A DNA stretch of 43,084 nt from positions 1 through 43,084 of IMG/VR virus record IMGVR_UViG_3300026274_000083, one strand, 5' to 3'. A program made the translations under genes and the position numbers. The notes under the pieces were generated by a model. The model was not told where the DNA came from, made no database searches, and was given only the letters and a program-made list of their open reading frames with translations. Of this stretch, positions 3,190 to 29,754 are shown in pieces; position 1 is the first letter of the stretch, and each line of letters begins with the position of its first letter. The stretch comes from a virus.

Positions 3190-4589
3190 GACGTCGCCCC
3201 CGAAGTACGCTCTGCGTCAGCGCCAGCAGGTGGAGCGGTCAGCTCATGTCCGAATGGAACGCGAAAGCCGGCGGCGTTGCGGTGGCCGCCGCCGCCGTAT
3301 TGCTGCGCGATCGCCGCTACATCCAGACCGTTGTCAGAGCTGCGCAGGCTGAAGGTGCGGCCCTGAGTTGTGTCCCAGTAGCAGGCGGCGAAAGGCTCGC
3401 CCTGGGTCATCAGGTGCCCGGCATCGCTGGACATGATCGGTGGCAGGTTCGCTACCGGTACGTCGTGGCCGCCTATGACCAGCCGGCGCTGTGTCAGGGC
3501 CACCATGTCCTGGGTATCCTTGCGCTGTTTGCGCTCGATCGCGGCGCCGTCCGAGCGCAGGGAGGCGGTGTCGGCGATCATCAGTTGGTCCCAGACTGTA
3601 AAATCGTGCGGATAGCTGAACAGGCTCGCCAGGATTTCCCGCGTGCCCTTGAGCTGGAACTGCCAGAGGTCGCGGTCCTGAATGTGCTTCAGGAGCGGTG
3701 GCGGCTCCTGCCCAGGGAAGAAGTGATCCCAGGCCAGCATGGCGCCGCTGCGCTGCATGTCAAAGCAGGCTGCAATAGCGGGGCGGTTTTGGCTGTGGCA
3801 GGCCGCCAATGCTGTCTCGCAGCAATCTCCGACGATATTGTCTGTTTGCGCATTGCCCTGACGGATGCCGGTCTGGAAGGCCGGCAGGCTGCTGAGATCC
3901 TCGGCAGCACTCTTGTGGTGGTCGAGGACGATCATGCTGTTGGCCCTTTCGCCCATCTCCTCGAGGACATCGCGCTTGTAGCTGAAGTCAACCAGGATCA
4001 CGTTCTTGCCCGTCACGTCTGGTGGTTGCTGGCCGTAGTGCCCGGGGACAAATTCGACCTTGGCGCCGAGTGCTTTACGAACAACCCAGGCGGCGCCGAA
4101 GCCGTCTGCGCAGTTGGCGTGGTAGATGCAAATGGTCTTCAGTGACTTGCCGGACATGGCGGATACCTGGGGAAAGAGGGTTGGATCGAAGGTGGCGCGC
4201 GCTGCGCGTTCCGCCAGGGCCTGGCGTACGGCTTTCAGGCCGCGGCGGCTGACGGGAACGTCCCAGCGTATTGGCTGCGCGGACAAAGCAAGGCTGATCA
4301 GGTTGAGTCTGTGCGACCCGGTGGCGTTGTCCCGGCGCAGATAGTTGATTGCGTGCTTCATCACCAGCACGCTGCGATGAGCCCGTGTCGCCTGGTCGCC
4401 GTAGATCTCCTCCAGCACATCGAGCGATGTTGTTAGCAGGTACTCGCCGTTCACCGTGTGAGCGGTGGCGTATTTGTCGGAGTACGAGAAGTGGGTGACG
4501 CTCTCGATCGGTGTGCGAATGACGACGCCGCGCCGGGCGGCCTGGATGTAGTGCGGCGTCATCTCTTGGTGTTTGGGGCCTGAGCTCAT
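3186..4589 (-). CDS. LytTR DNA-binding domain fused to DHH/DHHA1 phosphoesterase
   Basis: A 467-residue two-part protein. Residues about 20-127 look like a LytTR DNA-binding domain: IESVTHFSYSDKYATAH, then GEYLLTTSLDVLEE, HRSVLVMKHAI and the closing VPVSRRGLKAVRQAL. After a linker (128-147) comes a DHH phosphoesterase. It has IYHANCADG (H157, D162), LVDFS (D201), the signature LDHH (222-225), and a C-terminal DHHA1-type GGGGHRNAAGF at about 432-442. DHH enzymes cleave phosphodiester bonds in nucleotides or single-stranded nucleic acid with Mn2+, so phage nucleotide or DNA metabolism is plausible. A LytTR domain would target it to DNA or make it a regulator. The start at 4589 overlaps the upstream HD gene (ATGA), and a longer reading to 4721 has low-complexity sequence. 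An internal ATG at residue 145 could yield DHH alone. Confidence 0.8.
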   Translation of the reverse strand: MSSGPKHQEMTPHYIQAARRGVVIRTPIESVTHFSYSDKYATAHTVNGEYLLTTSLDVLEEIYGDQATRAHRSVLVMKHAINYLRRDNATGSHRLNLISLALSAQPIRWDVPVSRRGLKAVRQALAERAARATFDPTLFPQVSAMSGKSLKTICIYHANCADGFGAAWVVRKALGAKVEFVPGHYGQQPPDVTGKNVILVDFSYKRDVLEEMGERANSMIVLDHHKSAAEDLSSLPAFQTGIRQGNAQTDNIVGDCCETALAACHSQNRPAIAACFDMQRSGAMLAWDHFFPGQEPPPLLKHIQDRDLWQFQLKGTREILASLFSYPHDFTVWDQLMIADTASLRSDGAAIERKQRKDTQDMVALTQRRLVIGGHDVPVANLPPIMSSDAGHLMTQGEPFAACYWDTTQGRTFSLRSSDNGLDVAAIAQQYGGGGHRNAAGFRVPFGHELTAPPAGADAERTSGATS

Positions 4590-5131
4590 GCCGCCACCGC
4601 CTTGCGATGCGCGGCCTGCATCAGCTCCAGCAGGCGGTTGAAGTAGGTGTTCTTCGCAACGTCTGCGCGCAGGGGCGTGATGGTGGTGATGCAGGGGATG
4701 ACGTCCTTCAGGCACTCCCATTGCTCCGGGTGCCGGGGCATCAGGTCGCGGCGTTCGGTGGCGAGCGCCACCAGATCGGCGTGGTGCACGCTCGCTGGCA
4801 GTACCGGGTCGATGTTGAACCGCTCGCAGATGGCTAGCCAGACGTTGTGTTCGACGGCCTTGTACTCAGGCATTACGGCCTTGAGCGGGCGGGTCATGTC
4901 GCCAAGGTAGGCTTCGGTCGCATCGTGGAGCAGCGCGGCGAGTTGATCCTCGGCTGGCACCAGGTCTGCCACCAGCAGGCTGTGGTGCGCCACACTGTAG
5001 AGTTGGCTGGTATGCCCATTAAAGCGACACAACAGCGACAGCGCGTGGGCAATATCGATCGGGCTGATCATGCCGGCGGTCGGGGTGAGCAGGTCGAACC
5101 GGCGACCGCTGAAAGTGAGGATCCAGCTCAT
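4586..5131 (-). CDS. HD-domain phosphohydrolase (YfbR-like phage type)
   Basis: A 181-residue HD-superfamily metal-dependent hydrolase. The metal ligands are visible as AHH at 48-50, the HD pair in ALLHDATE at 69-70 and E73, followed by YLGDMTRPLK. Phage proteins of this look are usually grouped with YfbR-type 5'-deoxynucleotidases, which act on dNMPs. That would fit the dNMP kinase further up the same operon, but the substrate is inferred. The gene overlaps its neighbours by ATGA at both ends (4586-4589 and 5128-5131). Confidence 0.85.
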   Translation of the reverse strand: MSWILTFSGRRFDLLTPTAGMISPIDIAHALSLLCRFNGHTSQLYSVAHHSLLVADLVPAEDQLAALLHDATEAYLGDMTRPLKAVMPEYKAVEHNVWLAICERFNIDPVLPASVHHADLVALATERRDLMPRHPEQWECLKDVIPCITTITPLRADVAKNTYFNRLLELMQAAHRKAVAA

Positions 5132-5769
5132 GCTGCAGCTCCTTCTAGATGTTCCTTTTCCTTACGGGCCTTGTGCTGCTCGAACGCTTCGCGCAGGGCA
5201 TCACGGATATGTGGGTACCCTGCTGGGCACGCGTCGTCGTGCGGGAAGCGCACAAGGCTGGTCTTAAGGTCGCCAACGAGGTCGCCTTCCCTGTCCAGCC
5301 ATTCGATTAGCTGGGTGTCCAGCGATTCAGCGTTGAGGGTGTCCGCCGAATTGATGGTGTCGAGCACCCGGAAGGCGAGTTCGCCAAGGAGGTGGGCTTG
5401 GTTGATGGCCTTCAGGCGGTACGGCTCGGTACCGGGGAAGGCATCCCAGGTGTCTTTCGCTAGCCTGAGGGTGGTTGCAGCCTCCAGCAGGGCGAGATGA
5501 TCGGCCTTGGTGAACGGGGTAGCCCTGACCGTGCGGACTTGCTGCGAAAGTTCGGCAATGCGTGCCAGGTCGACCCGTTGCAGGCGGTTCAGGTCGTCAA
5601 TGTCTTTGTTCAGCGCCTCAACCCGTAAGGAGTGGACGGCGTTGCGCTCGCTGAGCCCGGCGGCGTAGCGGCTGACCAGAGCCCGCAGGATGGCGCGGCG
5701 GATGTAGTAGGTCATTAGGGCCAGGCCCAGGGTGATGCCCGCGTAAATGATCATGTGTTGTGTTTGCAT
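5128..5769 (-). CDS. Membrane-anchored coiled-coil protein, unknown function
   Basis: A 213-residue protein with one N-terminal hydrophobic segment (about 7-28, rich in I, L, A, then arginines), so probably anchored in the inner membrane with the remainder in the cytoplasm. Residues about 40-80 (RNAVHSLRVEALNKDIDDLNRL and on) have the heptad character of a coiled coil. The C-terminus is charged. I do not recognise a family. The start context includes the 12-mer ACACAGCACATG (5767-5778 on the opposite strand), which also begins the gene at 7058. An upstream GAGG serves as ribosome site. It is coupled to the HD gene by ATGA. Confidence 0.7.
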   Translation of the reverse strand: MQTQHMIIYAGITLGLALMTYYIRRAILRALVSRYAAGLSERNAVHSLRVEALNKDIDDLNRLQRVDLARIAELSQQVRTVRATPFTKADHLALLEAATTLRLAKDTWDAFPGTEPYRLKAINQAHLLGELAFRVLDTINSADTLNAESLDTQLIEWLDREGDLVGDLKTSLVRFPHDDACPAGYPHIRDALREAFEQHKARKEKEHLEGAAA

Positions 5770-5790
5770 GTGCTGTGTACCTCGGTAGAG

Positions 5791-5828
5791 CCCGCCGCCG
5801 TGATCGTTGGTGAGAGGCCGGCGGCGGG
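5791..5828 (-). promoter_or_regulatory. Intercistronic hairpin with CTCTCACCA in its loop
   Basis: A perfect 10-bp GC-only stem (5791-5800 with 5819-5828) encloses an 18-base loop. Read on the transcribed minus strand, the loop contains CTCTCACCA (5808-5816). It lies between the DUF2303 gene stop and the start of the membrane coiled-coil gene. There is no T-run, so it is not a standard terminator. The same 9-mer occupies hairpin loops at 9071-9100 and 10273-10307, whose stem sequences are unrelated. Confidence 0.65.
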
Positions 5829-5840
5829 GAGTTGCAGTGG

Positions 5841-6650
5841 TTAGGCCAGGCTGAAGCTGCCGATGGTCAGGGTTGCGTGACCGCCGACCTCCTGCTGCAC
5901 AACGGACTTGAACTCCTGGGCCAGGTCTTCACGCAATTGCGCTTCACCGATCCAGCGCAGGCGCAGGGTTGGTTTGTCGCCGGAGGTCAGCACGGCGACA
6001 CGCAGGCGAATGACCTTCTCGCCGAGGCCTTCGAATGGCTTCACGGTGAACAGGAATTCAGCAGGCAGGCCCTCGGATGACTTGGCCTCGATCCGCTCCA
6101 TCGCAGAACGAGACGTGCTCAGGTCGCCGACGACGTGTTCGCTCTGGCGTGCCTGGTCGATGCTGATCGATCGGATGGCGCCCGTGGCTTTGCGCAGGTC
6201 GATCTCGGTGGCGTCGGCGGTGAGGGCTTTCAGGTTTGGGGCCCAGTCCTCGATCCAGTCACTGAGGTCCTTCTGGGCGTGCTGTTTGCTGGCCGCCTGT
6301 TCGAGGGCCAGGAAGGCAGCCGTCTTTTTCAGGTTGAGTGTTGCGTTGAAATCACCGTGCCCCGGTGCGACTTCGTCGCCGAGGTTGAAATAGACGGTGC
6401 AGGCCATGGCATCGCCGTCAACGAAGCCCACGATGTTCGTGCTGGTCTGAGCGATGACGTAGTTGCTGAAGTCATTCAGCGAGTGAGTTTGCAGCGCTCC
6501 GCGGAAGCGGGCGCGGAGAAGCTGAAACTTCTCGATGCTGTGGATCTTGACGTCGGCTGGCAGGGCCACGGTAGGGATGTGGGTCGCCAGGGTCTTGGCG
6601 TGCGCGAGGATCGCGGTGTCTTGAATCAACTGTACGGCTTTGGCTTCCAT
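5841..6650 (-). CDS. DUF2303 (YfdQ-like) phage protein
   Basis: A 269-residue protein recognisable as DUF2303 from the opening MEAKAVQLIQDTAIL, the PADVKIHSIEKFQ segment near 36-48, and NYVIAQTS followed by a GDAMACTVYFNLGDE region near 65-95. This family is common in early operons of temperate phages of enterobacteria and pseudomonads. Its biochemical role is not established to my knowledge. The CTCTCACCA element lies 18-26 bases upstream of its start (6668-6676), here without a flanking stem. An AAGGAAAGATCC segment supplies the ribosome site. Confidence 0.85.
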   Translation of the reverse strand: MEAKAVQLIQDTAILAHAKTLATHIPTVALPADVKIHSIEKFQLLRARFRGALQTHSLNDFSNYVIAQTSTNIVGFVDGDAMACTVYFNLGDEVAPGHGDFNATLNLKKTAAFLALEQAASKQHAQKDLSDWIEDWAPNLKALTADATEIDLRKATGAIRSISIDQARQSEHVVGDLSTSRSAMERIEAKSSEGLPAEFLFTVKPFEGLGEKVIRLRVAVLTSGDKPTLRLRWIGEAQLREDLAQEFKSVVQQEVGGHATLTIGSFSLA

Positions 6651-6667
6651 TGGATCTTTCCTTGCGG

Positions 6668-6676
6668 TGGTGAGAG
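6668..6676 (-). promoter_or_regulatory. CTCTCACCA element upstream of the DUF2303 gene
   Basis: Fourth early copy of the 9-mer, in the gap between the 7058-6708 gene and the DUF2303 start. Unlike the other three copies it has no obvious inverted repeat around it. Confidence 0.5.
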
Positions 6677-6707
6677 AAATGGGCTTTCAGGTGTGGCAGC
6701 ACCGTCG

Positions 6708-7058
6708 CTATGACTTCGAGTGGATTGGTGCTTCGTCCCGGGTGAAGAGCTGGTCAGCGCCTGGCGCCTCCGGGAACAAGGTCAGCTTGCCGCCCTCACC
6801 GACATACATCGGTGTGTCGAGGGTGGTGTTCTCGCTGCGGCTGCCGCGTTTGGTCGGCACCTTGTAGTCGAGCTTGTGGTTAACGGTGACCTGGTGGCTG
6901 CTGCCGATCTGCTTCAGGCTGAAGGTCAGCGTGACCACGCCGGCCTTGCCGTGGTCGACCACGCCGGCTGCCACTTCGGACAGGGCGTGGCCGATCTGGC
7001 TGGCGTAAACCCCGGCATTGAGCTCGCCGATGAACTCGGCTGTATCAGTAGGTTTCAT
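6708..7058 (-). CDS. Conserved-looking phage early protein, unknown
   Basis: A 116-residue protein opening MKPTDTAEFIGELNAGVY, with a predicted beta-rich middle (GVVTLTFSLKQIG, QVTVNHKLDYKVP) and an acidic end. Genes of this size and look commonly precede DUF2303 in Pseudomonas prophages, and I recall no function for them. The start at 7058 was preferred over 7109 because it carries the same ACACAGCACATG start context as the gene at 5769 and is preceded by AAGAGA. Confidence 0.7.
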   Translation of the reverse strand: MKPTDTAEFIGELNAGVYASQIGHALSEVAAGVVDHGKAGVVTLTFSLKQIGSSHQVTVNHKLDYKVPTKRGSRSENTTLDTPMYVGEGGKLTLFPEAPGADQLFTRDEAPIHSKS

Positions 7059-7116
7059 GTGCTGTGTCTCTTGATTGCTATGTGTTTGCCCCTGGAGGGC
7101 AGGGGGCACCCTTGAA

Positions 7117-7365
7117 TCAAGCCGCCTGCTTCGGTGCCTGCGCGTCGAGGTAGGCGGCCAGGTCGTGCAGGTAGACCACCGGCTTCGCCCGGGCGGAGTT
7201 GTGCAGGCGGGTGAACTTGAGCTGGATGCGGCCGGAGCGGATCTCGCTGATCAAGTAGCGGTCGGTCCGGATGTGCGAGAAGTACCGTTCACGGACTGCC
7301 GACAACGTGGGGCAGGGCGTGGCGAACTCGCGCCGGAGCTGGTCGAGGGTCTGGCTCACGCGCAT
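7117..7365 (-). CDS. PrtN-like (pyocin activator family) small regulator
   Basis: An 82-residue protein that fits the pyocin activator PrtN family. An N-terminal helix is followed by LSAVRERYFSHIRTDRYLISEIRSG, IQLKFTRL, and the ending PVVYLHDLAAYLDAQ, closely parallel to the PrtN layout of YFGHL, IALPVTR and VHLQDLADYID. PrtN activates pyocin genes in P. aeruginosa after DNA damage. A phage homologue in an early operon is probably a transcription regulator of phage or host pyocin-type genes, but this is an inference. It overlaps the end of the upstream gene by 10 bases. Confidence 0.75.
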   Translation of the reverse strand: MRVSQTLDQLRREFATPCPTLSAVRERYFSHIRTDRYLISEIRSGRIQLKFTRLHNSARAKPVVYLHDLAAYLDAQAPKQAA

Positions 7366-7730
7366 ACCTCCCCGTGCCCCTCCACGTGGGGCAGCAACTT
7401 GACACGGATCGTCTCGGCCAGCCCTTCCTTGCTGACGCCCACCGCAGCAGCGAGGACCTGGCCGTCTTGATCGGCGACCACTGCACCGAACGGGAATCCG
7501 GGCAGGTTGGTCGGGGTTACGTAGGCAACCTGGCCGAGGCGGGTGACGGCATCGACGGCGCGGAAGACTTCCGCCAGGGCCAGATCCAGCGGCGGGATGC
7601 TGCCGAGGGCGGTCACTGCCTCGGCGGAGAGGCCGATCAGCGTTTCGCGGGAGACGGCACCGGGCTGGTTGAAGTAGACCGGTACCATCTTCAGAGCGCC
7701 TACGGCGATATCGAGCGGAGTCTGTTTCAT
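7356..7730 (-). CDS. Hypothetical phage early protein
   Basis: A 124-residue protein starting MKQTPLDIAVGALKMVP. It is rich in alanine, leucine and valine without a clear membrane segment, and no family is recognised. The start at 7730 overlaps the upstream KilAC gene stop as ATGA (7727-7730), which decides against the longer reading from 7781. It overlaps the PrtN-like gene downstream. Confidence 0.65.
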   Translation of the reverse strand: MKQTPLDIAVGALKMVPVYFNQPGAVSRETLIGLSAEAVTALGSIPPLDLALAEVFRAVDAVTRLGQVAYVTPTNLPGFPFGAVVADQDGQVLAAAVGVSKEGLAETIRVKLLPHVEGHGEVCA

Positions 7731-8002
7731 GCGGCGGCTTCCTTGTTCGAGATGGTGATGTCCAGCTTCTTGGCCAGCCACTGCACGCCCTCTTCCTTCA
7801 CCATCACCACGGCGTAGTGGACGCCTTTACCGATTTTCGGGTTCCAGCGGACGCGTGCGTCCGAGAACAGATAGCCCCGGTCACGGTGGTGGCTGGCGAG
7901 GTCGCCAGAGCTGGTCAGAATGCGCATGTCGCGCAGCTTGGCGCGGAAGGCCCGGGGCTTGATCCCGAGCACAGCCGCTGTTTCATCCAGGGTGCGGTTC
8001 AT
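7727..8002 (-). CDS. Stand-alone KilAC/antirepressor C-terminal domain
   Basis: A 91-residue protein. NRTLDETAAVLGIKPRAFRAKLRDMRIL followed by RDRGYLF, YAVVMVKEEGVQWLAKKL matches the phage KilAC (ANT C-terminal) domain almost end to end. In large antirepressors this winged-helix-like domain follows a BRO-N or Rha domain, and here it stands alone. It probably binds DNA and affects repression, but no antirepressor activity can be assumed without the N-terminal partner domain. Start at 8002 has a suitable upstream GAGG; a longer reading to 8065 would overlap the dNMP kinase gene. Confidence 0.75.
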   Translation of the reverse strand: MNRTLDETAAVLGIKPRAFRAKLRDMRILTSSGDLASHHRDRGYLFSDARVRWNPKIGKGVHYAVVMVKEEGVQWLAKKLDITISNKEAAA

Positions 8003-8012
8003 AGCAATGACC

Positions 8013-8585
8013 TCAAGCGGCGGGCCGATGTGTGCCGGTACGAATGAAGTGCAGGCATTCGTCAACCTGCTGGTGCAGGCCCGCCTGTGTTCCGGCGTTG
8101 TACACGGTCAGATCGACGCCCAGACGTTGGACGCCGGCCTCGCTGATATGGGGGTTGACCGCTGGTGCATTCGGCCGCTGAATGTGGATGATCGTGCCGC
8201 CGCGGTTCCGGATGAGCTCGGCTTCGTTCTCGAAGCGCACGTCGCTGATCACGAACCCGATCACGTCCGTCAGGGCGTTCTCCATGTAGTTGAGGTTCTG
8301 TTCCGCGATCTTGACCCATACGTCCGGGTGAACCATCTGGCGTGCCCACTCAGTACCCATTGACTGCATCAACTGGCGGGGCGACTTGCCGATCCAATCG
8401 ATTGGCTGCTCTTTGCGGGAGCCTTCGAAGTCTTCTGGATCAAGATTGAAGATCTCCATCAGGCCGGTGCGCAGCGGGTCAGCGAACGCGTAGTGCTCCA
8501 GCATGTGGTTACGCACCAGGTGTTCGGCGGCGGTAGATTTGCCGGAGCGGGCAGGGCCAGTGAGGCCGATCAGTAGTGGCTTCAT
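8013..8585 (-). CDS. Deoxynucleoside monophosphate kinase
   Basis: A 190-residue P-loop kinase. LIGLTGPARSGKST at 5-18 is the Walker A region. The HYAFADPLRTGL motif near 31-42 and IGKSPRQLMQSMGTEWAR near 65-83 are typical of phage dNMP kinases (T4 gene 1-like fold), and VISDVRFENEAELIR near 113-127 carries the later catalytic or lid segment. The enzyme converts dNMPs to dNDPs to supply phage DNA synthesis. It overlaps the upstream gene by ATGA (8582-8585). Confidence 0.9.
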   Translation of the reverse strand: MKPLLIGLTGPARSGKSTAAEHLVRNHMLEHYAFADPLRTGLMEIFNLDPEDFEGSRKEQPIDWIGKSPRQLMQSMGTEWARQMVHPDVWVKIAEQNLNYMENALTDVIGFVISDVRFENEAELIRNRGGTIIHIQRPNAPAVNPHISEAGVQRLGVDLTVYNAGTQAGLHQQVDECLHFIRTGTHRPAA

Positions 8586-8875
8586 GCTGCGGCCTCCGTG
8601 GCGAGGTGGCTTTTTGTCCAGTCCAGTAGGTCGAGCAGGCCCGGTTGCGGGTCTGGGTCCCGCTCAGTTGCTGTGAGTTGAGCGTGATTTGTCGTCCCAG
8701 GCCATTTGCCGGTTGGGTCACCAGTCCAGTCGTAACCTGCAGGCGCAATCTTCACGTCGACGCGACCAGCGTGTCCGGCCAGGTTGAAAAAGGCGTGCCA
8801 TTTCCCTTGGGAATTGATCAGGAGAACGGCGGCCAGGATCTGCATCAGCAGTTGTTCGGGAGTCAGCGGGTTCAT
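8582..8875 (-). CDS. Hypothetical phage early protein
   Basis: A 97-residue protein of unknown family. It opens with an amphipathic LTPEQLLMQILAAVLLINS and contains the tryptophans WHAFFNLAGH, GYDWTG and LLDWTKSH, suggesting a small folded domain. It is coupled by ATGA overlaps to the dNMP kinase below and the first operon gene above (8872-8875). Confidence 0.65.
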   Translation of the reverse strand: MNPLTPEQLLMQILAAVLLINSQGKWHAFFNLAGHAGRVDVKIAPAGYDWTGDPTGKWPGTTNHAQLTATERDPDPQPGLLDLLDWTKSHLATEAAA

Positions 8876-9069
8876 GCCGCGTCTCCCCCGAATGGGCCAA
8901 AGTCGTCAGCCGCTGGGGTGGTGTGGACCAGTTCGGGCTGGCGGAGCGCCGGGATGATGACCAGCACGCCGATGCGCTTCTGGATGGCTTCGACGGCCTT
9001 CGGGCTTGTGCAAGCTGTGGGGTGGAGATACACCCGGCAGCGGGTAGTGCTGTGCTGTGTGGTCTGCAT
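8872..9069 (-). CDS. First gene of the leftward early operon, hypothetical
   Basis: A 65-residue protein beginning MQTTQHSTTRCRVYLHPT, with a strand-rich middle (IGVLVIIPAL). No recognised family. It is the promoter-proximal gene of the minus-strand early transcript, about 28 bases after the predicted transcription start, and its leader carries the CTCTCACCA hairpin. A weak GAG/GTACGAG segment serves as ribosome site. Confidence 0.6.
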   Translation of the reverse strand: MQTTQHSTTRCRVYLHPTACTSPKAVEAIQKRIGVLVIIPALRQPELVHTTPAADDFGPFGGDAA

Positions 9070-9070
9070 G

Positions 9071-9100
9071 TCTCGTACTCTTGGTGAGAGGTATACGAGA
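9071..9100 (-). promoter_or_regulatory. Leader hairpin of the leftward operon with CTCTCACCA loop
   Basis: Arms TCTCGTA (9071-9077) and TACGAGA (9094-9100) form a perfect 7-bp stem around a 16-base loop holding CTCTCACCA on the minus strand (9082-9090). Within the loop CTCT and AGAG can also pair. The predicted transcript start (about 9097) falls in the first arm, so the RNA may form only part of the stem. Alternatively, the element could act as DNA. Confidence 0.6.
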
Positions 9101-9102
9101 TC

Positions 9103-9158
9103 AAAATTAGTGTTACTGGTTTAATCTGTCAATAGTATTGCTGTTATTTACTAATTTT
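9103..9158. promoter_or_regulatory. 9-bp inverted repeat flanking the PL-like promoter
   Basis: AAAATTAGT (9103-9111) and its exact complement ACTAATTTT (9150-9158) lie 38 bases apart, one covering the -10 hexamer and the other upstream of the -35. The spacing would place the arms on about the same DNA face for a looping or cooperative repressor. The identity of the binding protein (repressor or Cro-like) is inferred. Confidence 0.5.
9104..9132 (-). promoter_or_regulatory. Leftward early promoter (PL-like)
   Basis: On the minus strand a perfect -35 TTGACA (9132-9127) is separated by 17 bases from TAATTT (9109-9104). No other match this good is seen near the early operon. It would drive the genes from 9069 down to the integrase. 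It lies between two arms of a 9-bp inverted repeat (9103-9111 and 9150-9158), a likely operator layout. Confidence 0.75.
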
Positions 9159-9175
9159 TCTGGGCGGTCAGGCAC

Positions 9176-9200
9176 AAAAAAGCCCGCAGTGAGCGGGCTT
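9176..9200 (-). terminator. Rho-independent terminator of the repressor gene
   Basis: Read on the minus strand: AGCCCGC, a 5-base TCACT loop, GCGGGCT and a run of T residues (A-run at 9176-9181 on plus). It begins 18 bases after the repressor stop codon. Confidence 0.9.
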
Positions 9201-9217
9201 CCTCGGAGTGGTAATGA

Positions 9218-9940
9218 CTAAAGTTCCACGATTTTCCTACGGGCTCTGCCGTACACCTTCCATTCGGAGTCGATCTTGATCACTCGATCCGGCCAGTTCG
9301 GGTTGGTGGCGTAAAGGTAGAGATCACCACCTTCTTCGTTGATTTGCCTGAGCGTCGCAGCTTTCTCGTTGGCGCGCCTGGCGACTACAAAATCCCCCGA
9401 TTTCCAGGCCATGTCGGGATCGATAACAATTTTGTCACCAGGTGTAAAATCGGGCTCCATGCTTCTTCCTTCTACGCGCAGGATGAACGCGCGTGGGCCT
9501 GCAGCACCTCCTGCTTCGACCCATTCTTCTGCATCTTCCCGTTGAAATCCTTCACCCGCCTCGCAAAAGGCTACTGCTTTTACATATCCGATCACAGGCA
9601 ACAGCCTCCCCGCCGGTCCCAAATCCGTGGTGTTCTGGTGTGAGCCCCCGGTAACCGGGCTACTTATCACCGAACCGTTATTCGCCGGCGCCATCGTTTC
9701 CGCCAAGCGAGGGCTGACGCTCTCGGGGGCGAAACGTAAGGCGCGACTTAGGCTTAATAACGCGGGGAGATTCAGTGCGATCTTGCCTGTCATGTACTGG
9801 CTGACTGCGCTTTGACCAGACCACCCACAAGCTTCAGCAACCTTGTCTTGATTAAGACTACGGTCCTCTGCTTTCCGGGCGCTGTATGCGGCTTTGAGCC
9901 GGGCAGCTTCTTCTGCGACGTAGGGCGGCTTTTTAGTCAT
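9218..9940 (-). CDS. S24-family phage repressor (CI/PrtR-like)
   Basis: A 240-residue lysogeny repressor. Residues about 10-65 form a helix-turn-helix domain (QDKVAEACGWSGQSAVSQYMTG), and a linker rich in S, G and T runs to about 108. The C-terminal half is a LexA-like S24 domain with a candidate self-cleavage Ala-Gly in CEAGEG (128-129) and nucleophile S160 in VEGRSMEPD. The general base lysine usually follows about 37-40 residues after the serine in a TxK motif. Here the aligned position reads ATLRQI, so R198, and the nearest lysine is K193. Whether the protein can self-cleave after DNA damage is therefore uncertain. The start at 9940 opens MTKKPP; the longer reading to 9976 would cross the operator. 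Divergent from the Cro-like gene. Confidence 0.9.
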   Translation of the reverse strand: MTKKPPYVAEEAARLKAAYSARKAEDRSLNQDKVAEACGWSGQSAVSQYMTGKIALNLPALLSLSRALRFAPESVSPRLAETMAPANNGSVISSPVTGGSHQNTTDLGPAGRLLPVIGYVKAVAFCEAGEGFQREDAEEWVEAGGAAGPRAFILRVEGRSMEPDFTPGDKIVIDPDMAWKSGDFVVARRANEKAATLRQINEEGGDLYLYATNPNWPDRVIKIDSEWKVYGRARRKIVEL

Positions 9941-9951
9941 GGCATGGATCT

Positions 9952-9968
9952 TATAAGGGTTGCTTATA
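9952..9968. promoter_or_regulatory. Operator-like inverted repeat before the repressor
   Basis: TATAAG, a GGTTG spacer, then CTTATA form a perfect 6-bp dyad 12 bases upstream of the repressor start in the repressor/cro intergenic region. A similar GTTTATATGAGC occurs at 10003-10012 within the rightward promoter. These are candidate repressor or Cro-like operators. Confidence 0.45.
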
Positions 9969-9996
9969 TCGCTCAAAGAGTGCTGGTGGTTTTTTC

Positions 9997-10025
9997 TTGC
10001 CTGTTTATATGAGCTGGACTAATAT
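9997..10025 (+). promoter_or_regulatory. Rightward early promoter (PR-like)
   Basis: TTGCCT (9997-10002), a 17-base spacer and TAATAT (10020-10025) on the plus strand, followed by the Cro-like gene with its GAGGA ribosome site at 10044-10048. The spacer includes a TTATATGAGC similar to half of the operator at 9952-9968. Confidence 0.65.
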
Positions 10026-10056
10026 CTGGTCCTGCGTCCGTTCTGAGGAATTGAGA

Positions 10057-10266
10057 ATGCCAGTTGATTATGGGATCCCTTTGCGAGAGTTCGCGAAGGG
10101 CAAAAGTCAGATTGAGGTGGCTGAGCTTCTGGGTGTAACTCAGGGCGCCATCTCTCAAATGATGCTGAGTGGCCGGGATATCCGGGTTGTCAGTGATTCC
10201 GCCGGAAAGCCAGAGGGCTTTGAGATACGGCGTATTGGTAGTCGGCGTAAACAGTTGGCTGCATAG
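10057..10266 (+). CDS. Lambda-Cro-like repressor
   Basis: A 69-residue DNA-binding protein laid out like lambda Cro: IPLREFAKGKSQIEVAELLGVTQGAISQMMLSGRDI gives the helix-turn-helix, followed by a short beta section and a basic tail (RRIGSRRKQLAA). It would repress the early promoters and favour lysis. Start at 10057 follows GAGGA by 8 bases; the upstream in-frame ATGs at 9997 and 10009 overlap the promoter and are unlikely. It is the first gene of the rightward transcript and divergent from the repressor. Confidence 0.8.
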   Translation: MPVDYGIPLREFAKGKSQIEVAELLGVTQGAISQMMLSGRDIRVVSDSAGKPEGFEIRRIGSRRKQLAA

Positions 10267-10272
10267 GGTGCC

Positions 10273-10307
10273 GGGCTGGGGCCTCTCACCAAAGAACCCC
10301 CCAGCCC
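10273..10307 (+). promoter_or_regulatory. Hairpin after cro with CTCTCACCA loop (nut-like position)
   Basis: GGGCTGGGG (10273-10281) pairs perfectly with CCCCAGCCC (10299-10307). The 17-base loop contains CTCTCACCA (10283-10291) on the plus strand. It begins 7 bases after the Cro-like stop. No T-run follows. In lambda the equivalent place between cro and cII holds nutR. Lambda boxA (CGCTCTTACA) shares only the CTCT and AC parts with this element, so the similarity is weak. Confidence 0.6.
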
Positions 10308-10328
10308 AGCTACGACGATACACAGCAC

Positions 10329-10379
10329 ATGCACATCGGTCGTGGTCGTAGGATAGGTCGTACCTATTCGCATGGCTAG
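10329..10379 (+). other. Possible 16-residue Arg-rich leader peptide
   Basis: ATG at 10329 opens MHIGRGRRIGRTYSHG and a stop at 10377-10379, just before the CII-like gene. The ATG sits in the 12-mer ACACAGCACATG that also starts the genes at 5769 and 7058. No strong ribosome site precedes it. The peptide has four arginines. It may be a leader peptide or chance. Confidence 0.25.
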
Positions 10380-10401
10380 GCCGTAAACGGGGTATTTACG
10401 G
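10353..10401 (+). promoter_or_regulatory. Two inverted repeats upstream of the CII-like gene
   Basis: ATAGGT-CGT-ACCTAT (10353-10367) and CCGTAAA with TTTACGG (10381-10387 and 10395-10401, loop CGGGGTA). The second one ends 2 bases before the ATG at 10404 and holds its only purine-rich stretch (CGGGG) in the loop, so RNA folding could control translation. The first could be a protein-binding dyad. Confidence 0.4.
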
Positions 10402-10403
10402 TT

Positions 10404-10892
10404 ATGAGTCGCACAGATCTTTTGCCGGGCGCTGGCCCGGTCCTTTCATTGCGCGAAGCGCTTTACCGTTCCGGTCGTGACTATCGGGGTGGCATCACTG
10501 CGCTGGCCCATGACATGTTCATGGATTACGACGAGCTTCAGAAGAAATTGAAGCTCAACGAAGAGCGCCGCTGGCTGACGCCTGATGACCTGGAAGAGGT
10601 TATTCGGTTGACGCAAAGCCCTGCGCTGCTTGATGCCCTTGTGCGTCCTGCTGGTGCGGTCTGGTACAAGCCGACGCCTGTCCCTGCCACGGCTGAGGCA
10701 TTGAAGTCGGTTGGTAAGCTGCTGGAGAGAACTGGCGAGTTTGTTTCCAGCATGCACGCGGGTGCCGCTGATAACGTTTGGGAGCTTCACGAAGTCGCGA
10801 CCCTGGACAAGTACGGTATCGACGTGATCCAGGCGGTTTTGGGCATCATGGCCGGTGCCCGTCAGGCGATGGAGGCCCAGGACAATGGCTGA
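10404..10892 (+). CDS. CII-family (CP76-type) phage regulatory protein
   Basis: A 162-residue protein with the CII/CP76 phage regulatory layout. LREALYRSGRDYRGGITALAHDMFMDYDELQKKLKLN carries the DNA-binding helices, followed by WLTPDDLEEVIRLTQSPALLDALVRPAGAVWY. Members occupy the cII position in Pseudomonas prophages and are thought to promote lysogeny or control early transcription. The C-terminal half (about 95-162) is helical and may oligomerise. The stop overlaps the next gene's start region (ATGGCTGA). Confidence 0.8.
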   Translation: MSRTDLLPGAGPVLSLREALYRSGRDYRGGITALAHDMFMDYDELQKKLKLNEERRWLTPDDLEEVIRLTQSPALLDALVRPAGAVWYKPTPVPATAEALKSVGKLLERTGEFVSSMHAGAADNVWELHEVATLDKYGIDVIQAVLGIMAGARQAMEAQDNG

Positions 10893-11088
10893 CATCATTG
10901 ACGTGGCAAACGATCAGGCGGACTACCTTTTGCAAATGGCGCTGGACCGCCGGCCGCGGCCGACATGCTCAGTCAGCGCGCAATTCTGTGAAGACTGCGG
11001 TGAACCTATCCCGTTACTTCGTCAACAGACGATCCAGGGTTGTGCTACCTGCGTCAGTTGCCAGGGGTTGCGGGAGCGGCGCAGATGA
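10885..11088 (+). CDS. DksA/TraR-family zinc-finger protein
   Basis: A 67-residue protein with the C4 zinc finger of the short TraR type: FCEDCGEPIP (C35, C38) and CVSCQ preceded by C56 (C56, C59), plus a helix at 1-25. TraR-like phage proteins bind RNA polymerase through its secondary channel and change promoter choice without ppGpp. It overlaps the CII-like gene and the primase gene (ATGA, 11085-11088), so all three are coupled. Confidence 0.85.
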   Translation: MADIIDVANDQADYLLQMALDRRPRPTCSVSAQFCEDCGEPIPLLRQQTIQGCATCVSCQGLRERRR

Positions 11089-13784
11089 CTGATCAGGCCA
11101 ACGGAATCCCCACTGCTGAGTGGGCGCGGCGCTACATCGAAACCTTTGGCCTTGCGCTGGTCCCCATCTCCCCGGGAGAGAAGGGCCCCAAGGGGTTAGG
11201 CTGGAACAAGCCGGGCGGCTACATCACTGACGCTGCCAAGGCCGAAGCATTCTGGCAGAAGAATCCCAACCACAACCTGGGCGTCGTGCTCGGGCCGAGC
11301 CGTGTCTGTTCGCTGGATGTCGATGATGTGCAGTGGACGCGTCAGGTATTGTACGACCTGCTGGGCCTGGACCTGGATGCCATGGCGCTGGTGTTCCCGA
11401 CCGTTGTCGGCAACCCGGCGCGGTTCCGGATCCTGTTCCGGCTACCAGATGGCGTAGAGCTGAACCGCCATTCCCTGGCGTGGCCGAATGAGCTCGATCC
11501 GGATGGCTCGAAGCACAAGGCGCTGATGGCTCAAGCCAGGGCTGCCAAGGTGGCCGGCGATACCGCTGGCGAGGCCGAGGCCAGGGCAGAGGCCGAGCAG
11601 TTCCAGCGCATCACGGTGTTCGAGCTGCGCGCCGGCCTGGTGCAGGACGTTCTGCCGCCATCGATTCACCCGGGGACCGGCAAACCCTATGTCTGGCGCA
11701 CGGCGCCGAACGCCGATGAGGGCTTGCCGACACTGACAGCGGACCTTCTGTCGATCTGGAACAACTGGGACATCTTTAAGCGCGATGCCGAGGCCGCGTG
11801 CCCGTGGGCGCCGAAGCCGAAGAAACCGGTTGGGAAGGTACTCAAGCGACCGCCACCGGCCCAGGGCAAGCAGCCTTCGGTGATCGATGAGTTCAATCGT
11901 TGTCATGACGTGACCGAGTTGTTGCGTGCTCATAGCTACATCAAGCGTGGGAACAAGTGGCTTTACCCCCAGAGCAGCACTGGGCTGCCGGGCATCACCG
12001 TCAATGAAGGCAAGGTGTATTCGCACCACGGCGCGGATCCGTTGGCCAATGGGCATCAGAATGATGCGTTCGAGGTGTTCTGTCTGCTCGAGCACGGCGG
12101 TGATCAGGGGCGGGCAGTGAAGGAAGCTGCTCGGGTATTGGGTATGTCCCATTCCACGCGCCCAGATCCTGCTGATCTTCCCCCACCCCCATCTGATGAT
12201 TCGAGCGGGCCGAGCCAGGGCGGTGAAGTCGCGCCCAGCGAGGCTGCTCCTGCTTCAACGGGGGGCGCGGGGGAAGTCTTGACGCTTGACCAGGTGCTGC
12301 GGCGGTTTGCCTTAGTTGAGGGCACCACGCAGGTGTGGGATTGCGATCAGGCGCGGGCGATGAAGAAGGCGGCCTTTGAGGCTCGGGTAAGTAAGCCCAT
12401 CGCCAAGGAGTGGCTGGACAACACCGGTAAACGCCTCATATCTGCTGATCATGTCAGCGACATAGAGCAGGCGCGGCGTATGGCGGGAAAAAAGGGTGAT
12501 GCTTTTGGCATGTCGCCTACCGACCGCTATGTGTACATCGATGGGACCAAAGATGTTTGGGACCGAGAGAAGAAGCGGCGCATTGCCGAGGGCGCGGTGA
12601 AGATGGCCCTGGGCGATACCTACCCGCTGTGGTTGAACAGCAGCGAGCGGCGCACGGTGGACGTTGAGCATATCGTGTTTGACCCGACCATGACCAAAGA
12701 CCCCGCGGTGTACATCAACACCTTTGACGGCCTGCCGCTGGAGCCTGTGAGGGATGACGCGGCCTGCGCAAATCTGCGGTGGCTGATCTCGTTTCTATGT
12801 AACCACGATGAGGCCGCCGCCCAGTGGTTGGTACGGTGGTTGGCGTACCCGCTGCAACACCTGGGCGCCAAGATGGATACCGCTGTGCTGATGCACTCGA
12901 TCATGGAGGGTTCAGGCAAAAGCCTGTTGTTCGCCGATGCGCTGGGCATGCTCTACGGCCAGTACGCCGCGACCGTGGGCCAGACGCAGTTGGAAAGCAA
13001 CTTCAACGCCTGGCAAAGCCGGAAACTGTGGTCGGTGTTTGAAGAGGTGGTGAGTCGTGATCAGCGGTACAACCAGGTCGGGAAGATCAAGCATCTGATC
13101 ACCGGTAAGACCGTGCGCATGGAATCCAAGTTCATCAACGGATGGGAGGAAGCCAACCATATGAACGCGGTGTTCCTGAGCAATGAGATCCTGCCCTGGC
13201 CCATCAGTGAGAGCGATCGACGGATGTTGGTCATGTGGCCCATGGAAACGTTGCCGGTCGAGCGGCAAAAGGCAGTCGGCCGGGAGCTGGAACAAGGCGG
13301 CGTTGCGGCGCTGTATGGCTGGCTTCTATCGATTGATCTGGGCGACTTCAACCAGCGCACGCGGCCGCCATCGACTGAGGCTCGGGAGCGTCTGGTGGCT
13401 TTGAGTCGGGCTGGCTGGCAAACCTTTCTGCACCTGTGGAAGTACAGCGAGCTGGGGCGAGATCTCTGGGGGCCATGCCTCTCAACCGACCTCTATTCGC
13501 TGTTCCTTGAGTGGTGTCATCGCAACAAAGAACACGTGATGAGCCAGACCAAGTTCTCGCTTTTCATCAGTTCCGAGGTGGACAAGACCCGGGCCATTCC
13601 CTGGACGGATGGGAGTAATCGCAAGTTCGGGGCGTTCTTCTTTCCCCATGGGGATGATGCTTCCCCACCCCCATCACTCAGATCGGCCGACCTAGGCAAG
13701 GCAGTGGTCGCGTGGCGGGCGGCGGCGCGTCTGTCGGGGTGGAACGTCGATAACTGGGACCACATCAAGGCGGCTGCAGCATGA
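11085..13784 (+). CDS. PrimPol-helicase replication protein
   Basis: An 899-residue replicative protein. Residues about 10-220 form a bifunctional primase-polymerase domain: LALVPISPGEKGPK, the acidic catalytic SLDVDD (76-81) and the SIHPGTGKPY region. A zinc-free linker and proline-rich stretch (about 365-405) follow. The C-terminal half is a superfamily 3-like ATPase with Walker A EGSGKS (around 608-613) and an acidic LWSVFEEV motif at about 648-655, then SNEILPWPISESDRRM with an arginine sensor. The protein would open and prime the phage origin and is probably the sole dedicated replication gene. Start at 11085 is set by the ATGA overlap with the zinc-finger gene. Confidence 0.9.
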   Translation: MTDQANGIPTAEWARRYIETFGLALVPISPGEKGPKGLGWNKPGGYITDAAKAEAFWQKNPNHNLGVVLGPSRVCSLDVDDVQWTRQVLYDLLGLDLDAMALVFPTVVGNPARFRILFRLPDGVELNRHSLAWPNELDPDGSKHKALMAQARAAKVAGDTAGEAEARAEAEQFQRITVFELRAGLVQDVLPPSIHPGTGKPYVWRTAPNADEGLPTLTADLLSIWNNWDIFKRDAEAACPWAPKPKKPVGKVLKRPPPAQGKQPSVIDEFNRCHDVTELLRAHSYIKRGNKWLYPQSSTGLPGITVNEGKVYSHHGADPLANGHQNDAFEVFCLLEHGGDQGRAVKEAARVLGMSHSTRPDPADLPPPPSDDSSGPSQGGEVAPSEAAPASTGGAGEVLTLDQVLRRFALVEGTTQVWDCDQARAMKKAAFEARVSKPIAKEWLDNTGKRLISADHVSDIEQARRMAGKKGDAFGMSPTDRYVYIDGTKDVWDREKKRRIAEGAVKMALGDTYPLWLNSSERRTVDVEHIVFDPTMTKDPAVYINTFDGLPLEPVRDDAACANLRWLISFLCNHDEAAAQWLVRWLAYPLQHLGAKMDTAVLMHSIMEGSGKSLLFADALGMLYGQYAATVGQTQLESNFNAWQSRKLWSVFEEVVSRDQRYNQVGKIKHLITGKTVRMESKFINGWEEANHMNAVFLSNEILPWPISESDRRMLVMWPMETLPVERQKAVGRELEQGGVAALYGWLLSIDLGDFNQRTRPPSTEARERLVALSRAGWQTFLHLWKYSELGRDLWGPCLSTDLYSLFLEWCHRNKEHVMSQTKFSLFISSEVDKTRAIPWTDGSNRKFGAFFFPHGDDASPPPSLRSADLGKAVVAWRAAARLSGWNVDNWDHIKAAAA

Positions 13785-14751: not shown

Positions 14752-14861
14752 CCGGAGAGGGGTAAAAAGTCCCCACGATATGGAATTTGCGCCTCGGCGC
14801 TGACCTCGCACGTGCTGTGCAACCCGCCCCGGCTTTCGCTGGGACATCGAGAACCCTGCCT

Positions 14862-22008: not shown

Positions 22009-22419
22009 ATGTTCGTAGCAATCGCGGTAATCGTAATTTTCCTCAAGTCTTGGCGCGGTTACGCCCCAGGTGAAATTGCAGGTTTCGATGAAGAAACCGC
22101 TGATGGTCTCTTCGCAGGTGGCTATGCCGAAGAGTACTCCGACGAAGAGTCATCGAAGGCTCCAGAAGTAGCTGATAGTAAGAAGAACAAGCCACCGGCG
22201 TCGAAGGGGGCGGGGAAATCCAAGGCTTCATCCAAAGCGCCACCCACACAACGCCCGGCTCCGCTCTCACCAACGTTGCCCTTGGAACCGGGGGAAGGTG
22301 GCGATGGTGAAGGGCCCGATGATGACGAAGGCGGTGCGGGTGCTGGGAATGCTGAGGGCGGTGAAGGTGCCGGAGCTGGCGAAGATGACACCACAGGTTA
22401 CGGCGAAGGCAAGCCATAA
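22009..22419 (+). CDS. Low-complexity acidic protein after the capsid gene
   Basis: A 136-residue protein with a short ordered start (VIVIFLKSWRGYAPGEIAGFDEETADGLFAGGYAEEY) and a long tail of Lys/Ser/Pro and then Gly/Asp/Glu repeats from about 45. The ordered part resembles small head-associated proteins that follow the capsid gene in this phage group. The function is unknown, and the tail may vary quickly. GAGGGGCGG serves as ribosome site. Confidence 0.65.
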   Translation: MFVAIAVIVIFLKSWRGYAPGEIAGFDEETADGLFAGGYAEEYSDEESSKAPEVADSKKNKPPASKGAGKSKASSKAPPTQRPAPLSPTLPLEPGEGGDGEGPDDDEGGAGAGNAEGGEGAGAGEDDTTGYGEGKP

Positions 22420-27702: not shown

Positions 27703-29754
27703 ATGTCAGACAAGTTTCAGCTCAAGGCGTTGATTACCGGCGTCGACAGGCTGTCGCCGACGCTGACCGGTATCCGCAAGAACGTTGCGACCTTTCGTAA
27801 GCAGCTCAACAGTTCCGGGTTGGGGAACATCGGTTTCAAGGACGTGCTGCAGGGTGGTGCCTTCGCGGCACCGTTTGTGGCTGGGGCGAAGGCGGCCATC
27901 GATTACGAGTCGGCGATGGCTGACGTGAAGAAAGTGGTCAACTTCGATTCGCCGGAACAGTTCAAACAGATGAGCAAGGATGTGCTCGATCTGTCTGAAA
28001 AGCTGCCAATGGCGGCCAATGGCATCGCGTCGATCGTCGCGGCAGGCGGCCAGGCCAGTATTCCTCGCGAGGAGTTGAAGGCTTTTGCGACCGATGCAGT
28101 GAAAATGGGTATCGCCTTCGACCAGACCGCCGAGCAGTCGGGCGAGATGATGGCCAAATGGCGGACGTCGTTCAAGCTGACGCAGCCCGAAGTGGTGGCG
28201 TTGGCTGACAAGATCAACTACCTCAGCAACACGGGGCCTGCAACGGCGCAGCAGGTGTCGGACATCGTTACGCGAATCGGTCCGCTTGGTTCGATCGCCG
28301 GCCTTGCCTCTGGGCAAATCGCCGCGATGGGCGCGACTCTGGCGGGCGTCGGTGTGCCTAGCGAGGTCGCGGCGACGGGCATGAAGAACTTCATGCTGGC
28401 TCTCACCAAGGGCGGATCAGCGACCAAGCAGCAGGCAAAGGCCTTCAAATCACTGCGGCTGAACGTAAAAGAAGTCGCGAAGGGTATGCAGAAGGATGCT
28501 CAGGGCACAATCGAGAACGTGCTCGCGCGCATTGCTGAGGTCGATCCTGCCAAGCAGGCGGGCTTGCTGACTGAGCTTTTCGGTACCGAGTCGGTGGCGG
28601 CCATTGCACCAATGCTTACCAACCTGGATCTGTTGAAGAAAAACTTCAAGAGCGTGGGGGATGTAACCCAATACACAGGTTCCATGGAGCAGGAGTACGC
28701 ATCTCGCTCGGCGACCACAGCGAACGCGCTCCAATTGTTGCAAAACCGTGTGACGCGCTTGGGTATTGAGATTGGTAACGTGTTGTTGCCGCCGATCAAC
28801 GACGCTCTGGCGGTGATTGGGCCGTGGGTGACTAAGTTGTCGGAAGTGGCCGCTGCTCACCCTGAGGTCATCAAGGGCGTGCTGGGGGCTGGTGTGGCTT
28901 TCGGTGTGCTGCGCATTGCAGTGCTGGGCGCAATGATCGCGATGAAGCTGTTCGACACAGTGACAAAAATGTCGATCATCGGTCTGGTTGTTCGAGCGAT
29001 TGCACTGGCGGCGGGCTTCTTGATCGCCAACTGGTCGACAGTTGCTCCCTACTTTGAAAAGCTCTGGGACCGGATAAAAGGTCCGGCCATGGTGGTCTGG
29101 GAGTGGATGAAGAGCGCGTTCGCCTGGTCGCCGCTGGGCATCATCATCGAACACTGGGGGCCACTGTCTGAGTTCTTTGGGGCAGTCTGGGAGCTGATCA
29201 AAGCGCTATCGGTGCCGTTCTTTGACTTTCTCCGTGCTGCGTTTGATTGGAGCCCGCTTGGGATGATCATCAAACACTGGGGGCCGATCACTGAATGGTT
29301 CAAAGCGCTCTGGGAAAAGCTGAAGCCGATCATCGAACCGATCATGAAGTACTTCGGCGGGGGAGACGGCGGTGACGGCATCATCGCGGCGGCGACCAAC
29401 AAGGTCAACGCTTTCGCCGAAGCCCAGCGGCAGCGGAACGCTGGGCCAGGTGGTGGTACTGGTGCCCTGGTAATGGCGGCGGCACCACTGGTGGCGAAGA
29501 GTCAGCAGGATGCCAACAACGCGGCCACCGGTGTCGACCCTTCGGCACTGCTGCGAGCGCCCGGGCAATTGCCGCCTCCTGGCAGTTTGCTCATGCAGAC
29601 AGCGGCCAACAACCGACAGAACCTTCAAGGCGATCTCCGCATTCACTTCGATGATGCGCCTGCCGGCATGGTCGTGGACGATGCAAAAACCAATCAGCCC
29701 GGCCTGAGCGTGAAGCCCAGTGTCGGACGCCGGACAGTGGGAGCGGGCAGGTAA
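27703..29754 (+). CDS. Tail tape measure protein
   Basis: A 683-residue protein. The N-terminal region (ALITGVDRLSPTLTGIRKN, FAAPFVAGAKAAIDYESAMADVKKVVNF) is the TIGR01760-type core. Hydrophobic segments at about 390-415 and 420-450 can insert in the host membrane. Residues about 465-550 contain two copies of a WSPLGxIIxHWGPxxEWF module about 43 residues apart. Its length sets the tail length, predicting a tail near 100 nm (by the usual 0.15 nm per residue). Overlaps the next gene by one base. Confidence 0.93.
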   Translation: MSDKFQLKALITGVDRLSPTLTGIRKNVATFRKQLNSSGLGNIGFKDVLQGGAFAAPFVAGAKAAIDYESAMADVKKVVNFDSPEQFKQMSKDVLDLSEKLPMAANGIASIVAAGGQASIPREELKAFATDAVKMGIAFDQTAEQSGEMMAKWRTSFKLTQPEVVALADKINYLSNTGPATAQQVSDIVTRIGPLGSIAGLASGQIAAMGATLAGVGVPSEVAATGMKNFMLALTKGGSATKQQAKAFKSLRLNVKEVAKGMQKDAQGTIENVLARIAEVDPAKQAGLLTELFGTESVAAIAPMLTNLDLLKKNFKSVGDVTQYTGSMEQEYASRSATTANALQLLQNRVTRLGIEIGNVLLPPINDALAVIGPWVTKLSEVAAAHPEVIKGVLGAGVAFGVLRIAVLGAMIAMKLFDTVTKMSIIGLVVRAIALAAGFLIANWSTVAPYFEKLWDRIKGPAMVVWEWMKSAFAWSPLGIIIEHWGPLSEFFGAVWELIKALSVPFFDFLRAAFDWSPLGMIIKHWGPITEWFKALWEKLKPIIEPIMKYFGGGDGGDGIIAAATNKVNAFAEAQRQRNAGPGGGTGALVMAAAPLVAKSQQDANNAATGVDPSALLRAPGQLPPPGSLLMQTAANNRQNLQGDLRIHFDDAPAGMVVDDAKTNQPGLSVKPSVGRRTVGAGR

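Follow-up and report, generated by a model that had tools for sequence, protein, structure and literature searches.

The early region of a phage genome represented by the IMG/VR record IMGVR_UViG_3300026274_000083 carries several copies of a short composite sequence element in both of its early transcripts. The whole stretch analysed, positions 1 to 43,084 of that record, is referred to here as the window. A CI-like repressor gene (9218-9934, minus strand) lies between two divergent early operons, whose genes were named by homology with the phages PG1 and Lodos. The leftward one, behind the promoter pL, opens with a small gene that we call LORF (65 aa, phrog_13491, 8872-9069, minus strand) in the position of lambda N. 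This is followed by a kinase, a small helix-turn-helix (HTH) protein, a PrtN-like gene, a yfdP-like gene (6708-7058), a yfdQ-like gene (DUF2303, phrog_210, 5841-6650, minus strand), a gene that varies among phages (here 5128-5769) and others. The rightward operon contains a Cro-like gene (approximately 10058-10266), a CII-like activator (PF06892, phrog_101, 10404-10892), a DksA-like gene (10891-11088) and a primase (11085-13784), all on the plus strand. The element is found at four sites: at the 5' end of the pL transcript (site L), between cro and cII (site R), in the pL-operon gap that follows the yfdQ-like gene (site M), and, in reduced form, 5' of the yfdQ-like gene (site D).

Two motifs make up the element. 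Motif A is the 9-mer CTCTCACCA, present in six copies in the window where 0.31 are expected, a number reached by none of 100 shuffles. The copies are located at 5808-5816, 6668-6676 and 9082-9090 on the minus strand and at 10283-10291, 22264-22272 and 28400-28408 on the plus strand. A preliminary description of this DNA had estimated about 0.3 chance copies, in agreement with our computation, and had placed three copies in hairpin loops. These hairpins are indeed perfect, with stems of 7 bp (9071-9077/9094-9100), 10 bp (5791-5800/5819-5828) and 9 bp (10273-10281/10299-10307). It had also given 22264-22272 as the only other copy noticed, overlooking the one at 28400-28408. Both of these lie in the late region without a composite counterpart and were taken as unrelated. 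Together with a match to the first 8 bases at 41128-41135, they are lone occurrences in the window's late or right-hand part, with neither stem nor second box, and are probably due to chance. Motif B, which is absent from the preliminary description, is a second common box, ACACAGCAC, located 21-29 nt 3' of each of the three hairpin copies. It occurs four times in the window (0.46 expected), the fourth copy being directly 5' of the ATG of the yfdP-like gene. Chance can be ruled out as the origin of the recurrence of the 9-mer, considering the copy number against the shuffles, the recurrence of the composite and its presence at the same sites in relatives. The exact 9-mer is merely the commonest among several loop types, and motif B is also part of the element.

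At site L, the hairpin (9071-9100, minus strand, motif A at 9082-9090 in the loop) lies immediately 3' of a promoter-like TTGACA-17 nt-TAATTT, and would be the first structure in the pL RNA, so that the predicted start leaves it within the transcript. Directly behind it starts LORF, with motif B (9052-9060, minus strand) within its first codons (MQTTQHS). The purine-rich ribosome site of LORF (AGAG, GGAG or AAGG in the window at 9071-9100 and in relatives) falls on the loop's 3' side, and base-pairing between it and the 5' portion of motif A is possible in many types. Site R is more elaborate and comprises four helices on the plus strand. Hairpin A (10273-10307) has motif A at 10283-10291 in its loop. 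In hairpin B (10315-10343), ACGAT at 10315-10319 pairs with GTCGT at 10339-10343 and motif B (10320-10328) is exposed in the loop; it is predicted by RNAalifold from 34 relatives, and strong B hairpins are found in S. stutzeri phages. A third conserved helix (10344-10377), in which GGUCGUAGG pairs with CNNAUGGCU, is imperfect in the window, and a fourth (CCGTAAA/TTTACGG, 10381-10401) adjoins the cII start and holds the purine-rich cII ribosome site in its loop; both are derived from covariation and RNAalifold. At site M, the hairpin (5791-5828, minus strand, motif A at 5808-5816, 10-bp stem) is kept in relatives and is also matched by a covariance model of R, and motif B (5770-5778, minus strand) sits exactly between the ribosome site and the ATG of gene 5128-5769. 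The motif A copy of site D (6668-6676, minus strand) is unpaired in the window and conserved in relatives, where no stem was found either. The fourth motif B (7059-7067, minus strand) stands by itself, adjoining the ATG of the yfdP-like gene.

The same arrangement is widespread among related phages, the loop being present early in both transcripts of hundreds of Pseudomonas phages and prophages. No fewer than 119 viral-contig stretches contain the composite CTCTCACCA-N10-40-ACACAGCAC, in two or three copies arranged alike and at the three homologous places L, R and M. Named phages with the element or a variant are KT1, SC_9_H1H8_2017, LPPA56, Lodos, Presto, PG1 and vB_PstS-pAN (pAN), and the phages Turba and Meadow match by sequence similarity only. 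At site M the element is constant while the gene behind it differs between phages, indicating that it is not tied to one gene. Across the complete genomes of PG1, LPPA56, Lodos and pAN, the loop motif occurs almost only in the early region, always in the sense orientation there. We have also used sets fetched by the LORF protein alone, hence independent of the motif (43 loci from Pseudomonas, Stutzerimonas and Halopseudomonas genomes plus 80 viral loci, and a further set from 56 genomes among 299 belonging to one Pseudomonas genus group), and a hairpin was located directly 5' of the LORF start in nearly all of them. When 299 Pseudomonas genomes were scanned with the covariance model of R, 39 strong matches were obtained, about one in eight genomes. 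The model gave no match in 274 gammaproteobacterial genomes, a search that also missed a known Halopseudomonas case and does not establish absence outside Pseudomonas. In two loci (L163, R region 4400-4670, minus strand, and L306) three to five consecutive A-type hairpins follow each other at R, every loop reading CTCTGAC. In pAN (L250), two successive pL-operon gaps (at about 11410 and 12250) contain a near-identical module consisting of an A hairpin, a purine-rich ribosome site, ACACAGCAC and the ATG.

The stems are maintained by compensatory change. Among distinct sites, stems of at least 6 bp were present in 81% of L, 86% of R and 93% of M sequences, against 21%, 16% and 25% respectively with shuffled 5' arms. 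In the R structure (34 sequences) 90.9% of the cells were paired, with 63 double changes against 21.6 in shuffled alignments and no more than 28 in slid versions. RNAalifold recovered for R the A hairpin, a hairpin with motif B in the loop and two further helices up to the cII start. For the L hairpins (n=22) the covariation score was 0.360, compared to 0.117 when shuffled and 0.02-0.09 when slid. For R and L alike, the covariation is above every shuffle and every slid version. Part of the R and L sequences had been selected by motif, which affects the loop and not the pairing of the stem. Changes of the GU type are common in the stems at R, and in pAN and PG1 motif B is found within long hairpins at this site. 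Two hairpins are discernible at R, only the first being clear at L. Along these lines, the preliminary proposal that unrelated stems around a common loop reflect selection on the loop is well supported by the kept loops and covarying stems, and the outcomes that would have contradicted it, relatives lacking the 9-mer or not keeping the stems, did not occur. Its comparison of the two leader copies to the places of lambda nutL and nutR also holds in relatives, with L at the 5' end of the pL mRNA and R between cro and cII.

Motif B can be dissected at site L, where it falls in the LORF frame and encodes the residues T-Q-H. In a set of genes selected by these amino acids, the codons used were ACA in 98 of 98, CAG in 113 of 113 and CAC in 111 of 113 cases. 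Elsewhere in the same genes ACA accounts for 6% of the threonine codons, CAG for 65% of the glutamine codons and CAC for 81% of the histidine codons. Motif B is conserved as nucleic acid and not merely as protein; kinship among the genes inflates the significance of this test, not its direction.

A way to approach the role of the loop is to follow its variation among phages. The loop types include CTCTCACC, CTCTGACC, CCTCTAC, CACTTACC, CACTCACC and CACCTACC, and next to more distant LORFs TCCACCAC, TTTACCAC, CAATCATTACC and others. With R, D and M assigned by their flanking genes only, phages with CTCTCACC at L had the same type at R in 172 of 172 cases, at M in 75 of 76 and at D in 71 of 79. 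At R, D and M, the few phages of divergent type had either their own type or one differing by a single base (CACCTACC, CACTTACC, CACTCACC, CTCTGACC and CCTCTACC/A), the D version being kept in five of six; the R region of L158, which reads CCTCTACT, was left unscored. No replacement by the loop type of another phage was seen at R, D or M, apart from one partial overlap, an M site of CACTCACC type that also contains CACCTACC. In 44 diverse loci the phage's own loop recurred in a strong R hairpin in 33, against 172 of 1224 cross-checks (14%) with foreign loops having no 7-mer in common with it, and in a strong M hairpin in 26, compared to 9% for such foreign loops. Two loci, L323 and L303 (the latter with CAATCATTACC), were exceptions in which no second copy of the loop was found; the leader before LORF in L303 may represent a new loop type or a decaying prophage. 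The pair LPPA56 and Lodos is particularly informative. Both infect P. aeruginosa and differ in loop type at all sites, while their PrtN, winged helix-turn-helix (wHTH) and DksA proteins are 98-100% identical, LORF is 75% identical and CII 90%. Since the two phages share the host species, the host does not set the loop type. The concerted change within each phage therefore calls for a loop reader that coevolves with the phage, and points to a phage-specific trans-acting partner, giving indirect support to the earlier suggestion that a protein or RNA binds the loop.

Among the candidates for such a reader, LORF appears the best, judging from its linkage to the element and its lambda N position alone. 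In the 299 genomes, 38 of the 39 strong R matches are located 1.3-3.4 kb from a LORF match, and the remaining one is accompanied by a divergent LORF with its own L hairpin. In 17 divergent loci, LORF was present in all and CII in 16, and other early genes were absent from some. No Pfam family was matched by LORF. Its conserved C terminus (...WGGDAA in all loci) overlaps the apparent ribosome site and the start of the next gene, and due to this overlap its conservation may be partly at the DNA level. Other candidates fared worse. The yfdP and yfdQ products were rejected since their genes were not found in the Lodos, L162 and L167 loci, which keep the element. PrtN-like, wHTH and DksA proteins are unlikely to determine specificity given their near identity in LPPA56 and Lodos despite the different loops, and a host factor is unlikely because loop types differ among P. 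aeruginosa phages. An arginine-rich, N-like protein was also looked for; LORF is not one, and the other early open reading frames were not screened one by one for it.

Across phages, L, R and M are homologous sites with covarying stems, the loops change in step within a phage, and motif B is kept as nucleotide sequence. We propose, with middling confidence, that these copies represent a multi-copy cis-acting RNA element of both early transcripts, similar to nut or put, that works with a phage protein, perhaps LORF. It combines a hairpin, whose phage-specific loop is rich in pyrimidines and ends in AC or ACC (motif A), with the almost invariant box ACACAGCAC (motif B), which at R lies in a hairpin loop as well. 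A single phage-encoded factor may read the loop, and this factor or the RNA structure would be loaded on the RNA polymerase at the pL start and after cro, allowing both early operons to be read to their ends by processive antitermination. The positions of L and R make antitermination the most likely use of the element. We suggest more tentatively, as a proposition somewhat less probable than its opposite, that it forms a separate, so far undescribed class, of an origin independent of N/nut and put, in which a small phage protein of the LORF family, a family without known relatives, reads a variable loop code plus the constant ACACAGCAC at every early-operon site across Pseudomonas sensu lato, with a rudimentary version in P. 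syringae tailocins.

The resemblance to lambda nut/N lies in having a site on each early transcript, one behind pL and one between cro and cII, in the combination of a phage-specific hairpin loop with a more constant linear box, and in the small first gene of pL directly behind the left site. Unlike in lambda, here the hairpin precedes the linear box, the loop is usually of 13-20 nt and not a GNRA-like fold, and the pL operon contains additional copies; LORF, moreover, is not arginine-rich and does not belong to a known family. The loop CTCTCACC slightly resembles CTCTTACAC of lambda nutR. The loop was rejected as a boxA, the types CACTTACC, CACCTACC and TTACCACAG being unlike CTCTTACAC, and the best matches to a boxA core (GCTCTTTA-like) near L and R were no closer than in shuffled sequences.

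Several observations weigh against antitermination through LORF. LORF is near neutral, not arginine-rich like lambda N, and its AlphaFold2 model (predicted local distance difference test score, pLDDT, of 60) is mostly unstructured, of low confidence and uninformative. In S. stutzeri phages, LORFs of 85-92% identity are found with different loop types, and for close LORFs the loops can be one base apart. In loci of the P. syringae group next to trpE (L166, L168, L169 and L170, at approximately 5900-6500), probably R-tailocin clusters, LORF and a PrtN-like gene follow a hairpin with a changed loop, CTCGTCATG; in these four loci no CII or R region was found and the usual loop is absent. No intrinsic terminator was found between R and cII. 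Translational control would account at least equally well for the extra copies at D and M and for motif B standing between a ribosome site and its ATG, and kinship among the sequences inflates all the counts given above.

Translational control is indeed the main rival, a possible explanation to which we assign a clearly lower probability. A phage RNA-binding protein (LORF or another) would act on motif A and/or B near the ribosome sites of the pL genes and cII, up or down, R being the regulatory leader of cII. At M, at the yfdP-like gene and, in LPPA56 and its relatives, ahead of yfdQ, the space from the ribosome site to the ATG is taken up by motif B. The ribosome sites of LORF and cII are themselves in loops, that of L and that of the last R helix, and the D copy is unpaired just 5' of the yfdQ ribosome site. 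However, at R both motifs are some 75-120 nt 5' of the cII start and several A hairpins can stand in a row, at M motif A is upstream of the ribosome site and not on it, and translational control does not require the placement of L and R behind pL and after cro. Phage coat and other autoregulatory translational operators are protein-specific hairpin loops near start codons, with one or two sites and defined stems. The copies near start codons recall them, unlike the many sites per phage, which include leaders far from ribosome sites.

An antiterminator made of RNA only, in which the nascent RNA binds the RNA polymerase without a phage protein as in HK022 put, would explain the same places and the strong structural conservation. 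In HK022, putL is just behind PL and putR approximately 270 nt behind the PR start, each of about 70 nt with one conserved fold (PMC9378689). Our element is similar in having L just behind pL, R after cro, two hairpins in R and structured nascent RNA. We nonetheless find this explanation improbable, since a host polymerase is not expected to demand concerted loops that differ between phages within one host species. Also, L and R have loops in common and not whole folds, the stems of L, R and M being unrelated, and in the HK022 early region the R model has no match and neither motif is present. Reading the element as a DNA signal (an operator, or a replication or recombination signal extruding as a hairpin) is very improbable. 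Hairpins are possible in DNA and a primase gene lies after cII, but all early-operon copies are in transcript orientation, L begins at the likely first transcribed base, GU-type changes are common in the stems and motif B is held within a coding frame. Pairing of the loop with a complementary trans-acting phage RNA would likewise yield concerted loop change and appears the most improbable of these explanations. No sense-transcribed intergenic place in the complete PG1, LPPA56, Lodos and pAN genomes was found to contain the exact complement of the loop, in a scan that covered exact complements and not split or short ones.

No Rfam 15 family matched at its gathering score, with only far sub-threshold matches at relaxed E values, and no description of the element was found in the literature searched (including nut-like sites in Pseudomonas phages, PrtN and YfdQ). 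The passage through early operons in temperate Pseudomonas phages without N or boxA is apparently undescribed in that literature. Regulation by antitermination in a phage-like Pseudomonas system is known from AlpA of P. aeruginosa (PMC7969949, PMC9371919), which recognises a promoter DNA element, in contrast to the RNA loop repeated along transcripts seen here. With loop types shifting together at four or more sites, the element amounts to a natural experiment in RNA recognition. The partner could be found by loop swaps between close phages such as LPPA56 and Lodos, which would supply a set of orthogonal RNA-protein pairs and an annotation handle for early regions. Finally, the window contains CACAGCAC at 14812-14819 on the minus strand, opposite to the rightward operon, with similar sequence around it in LPPA56 and Lodos.

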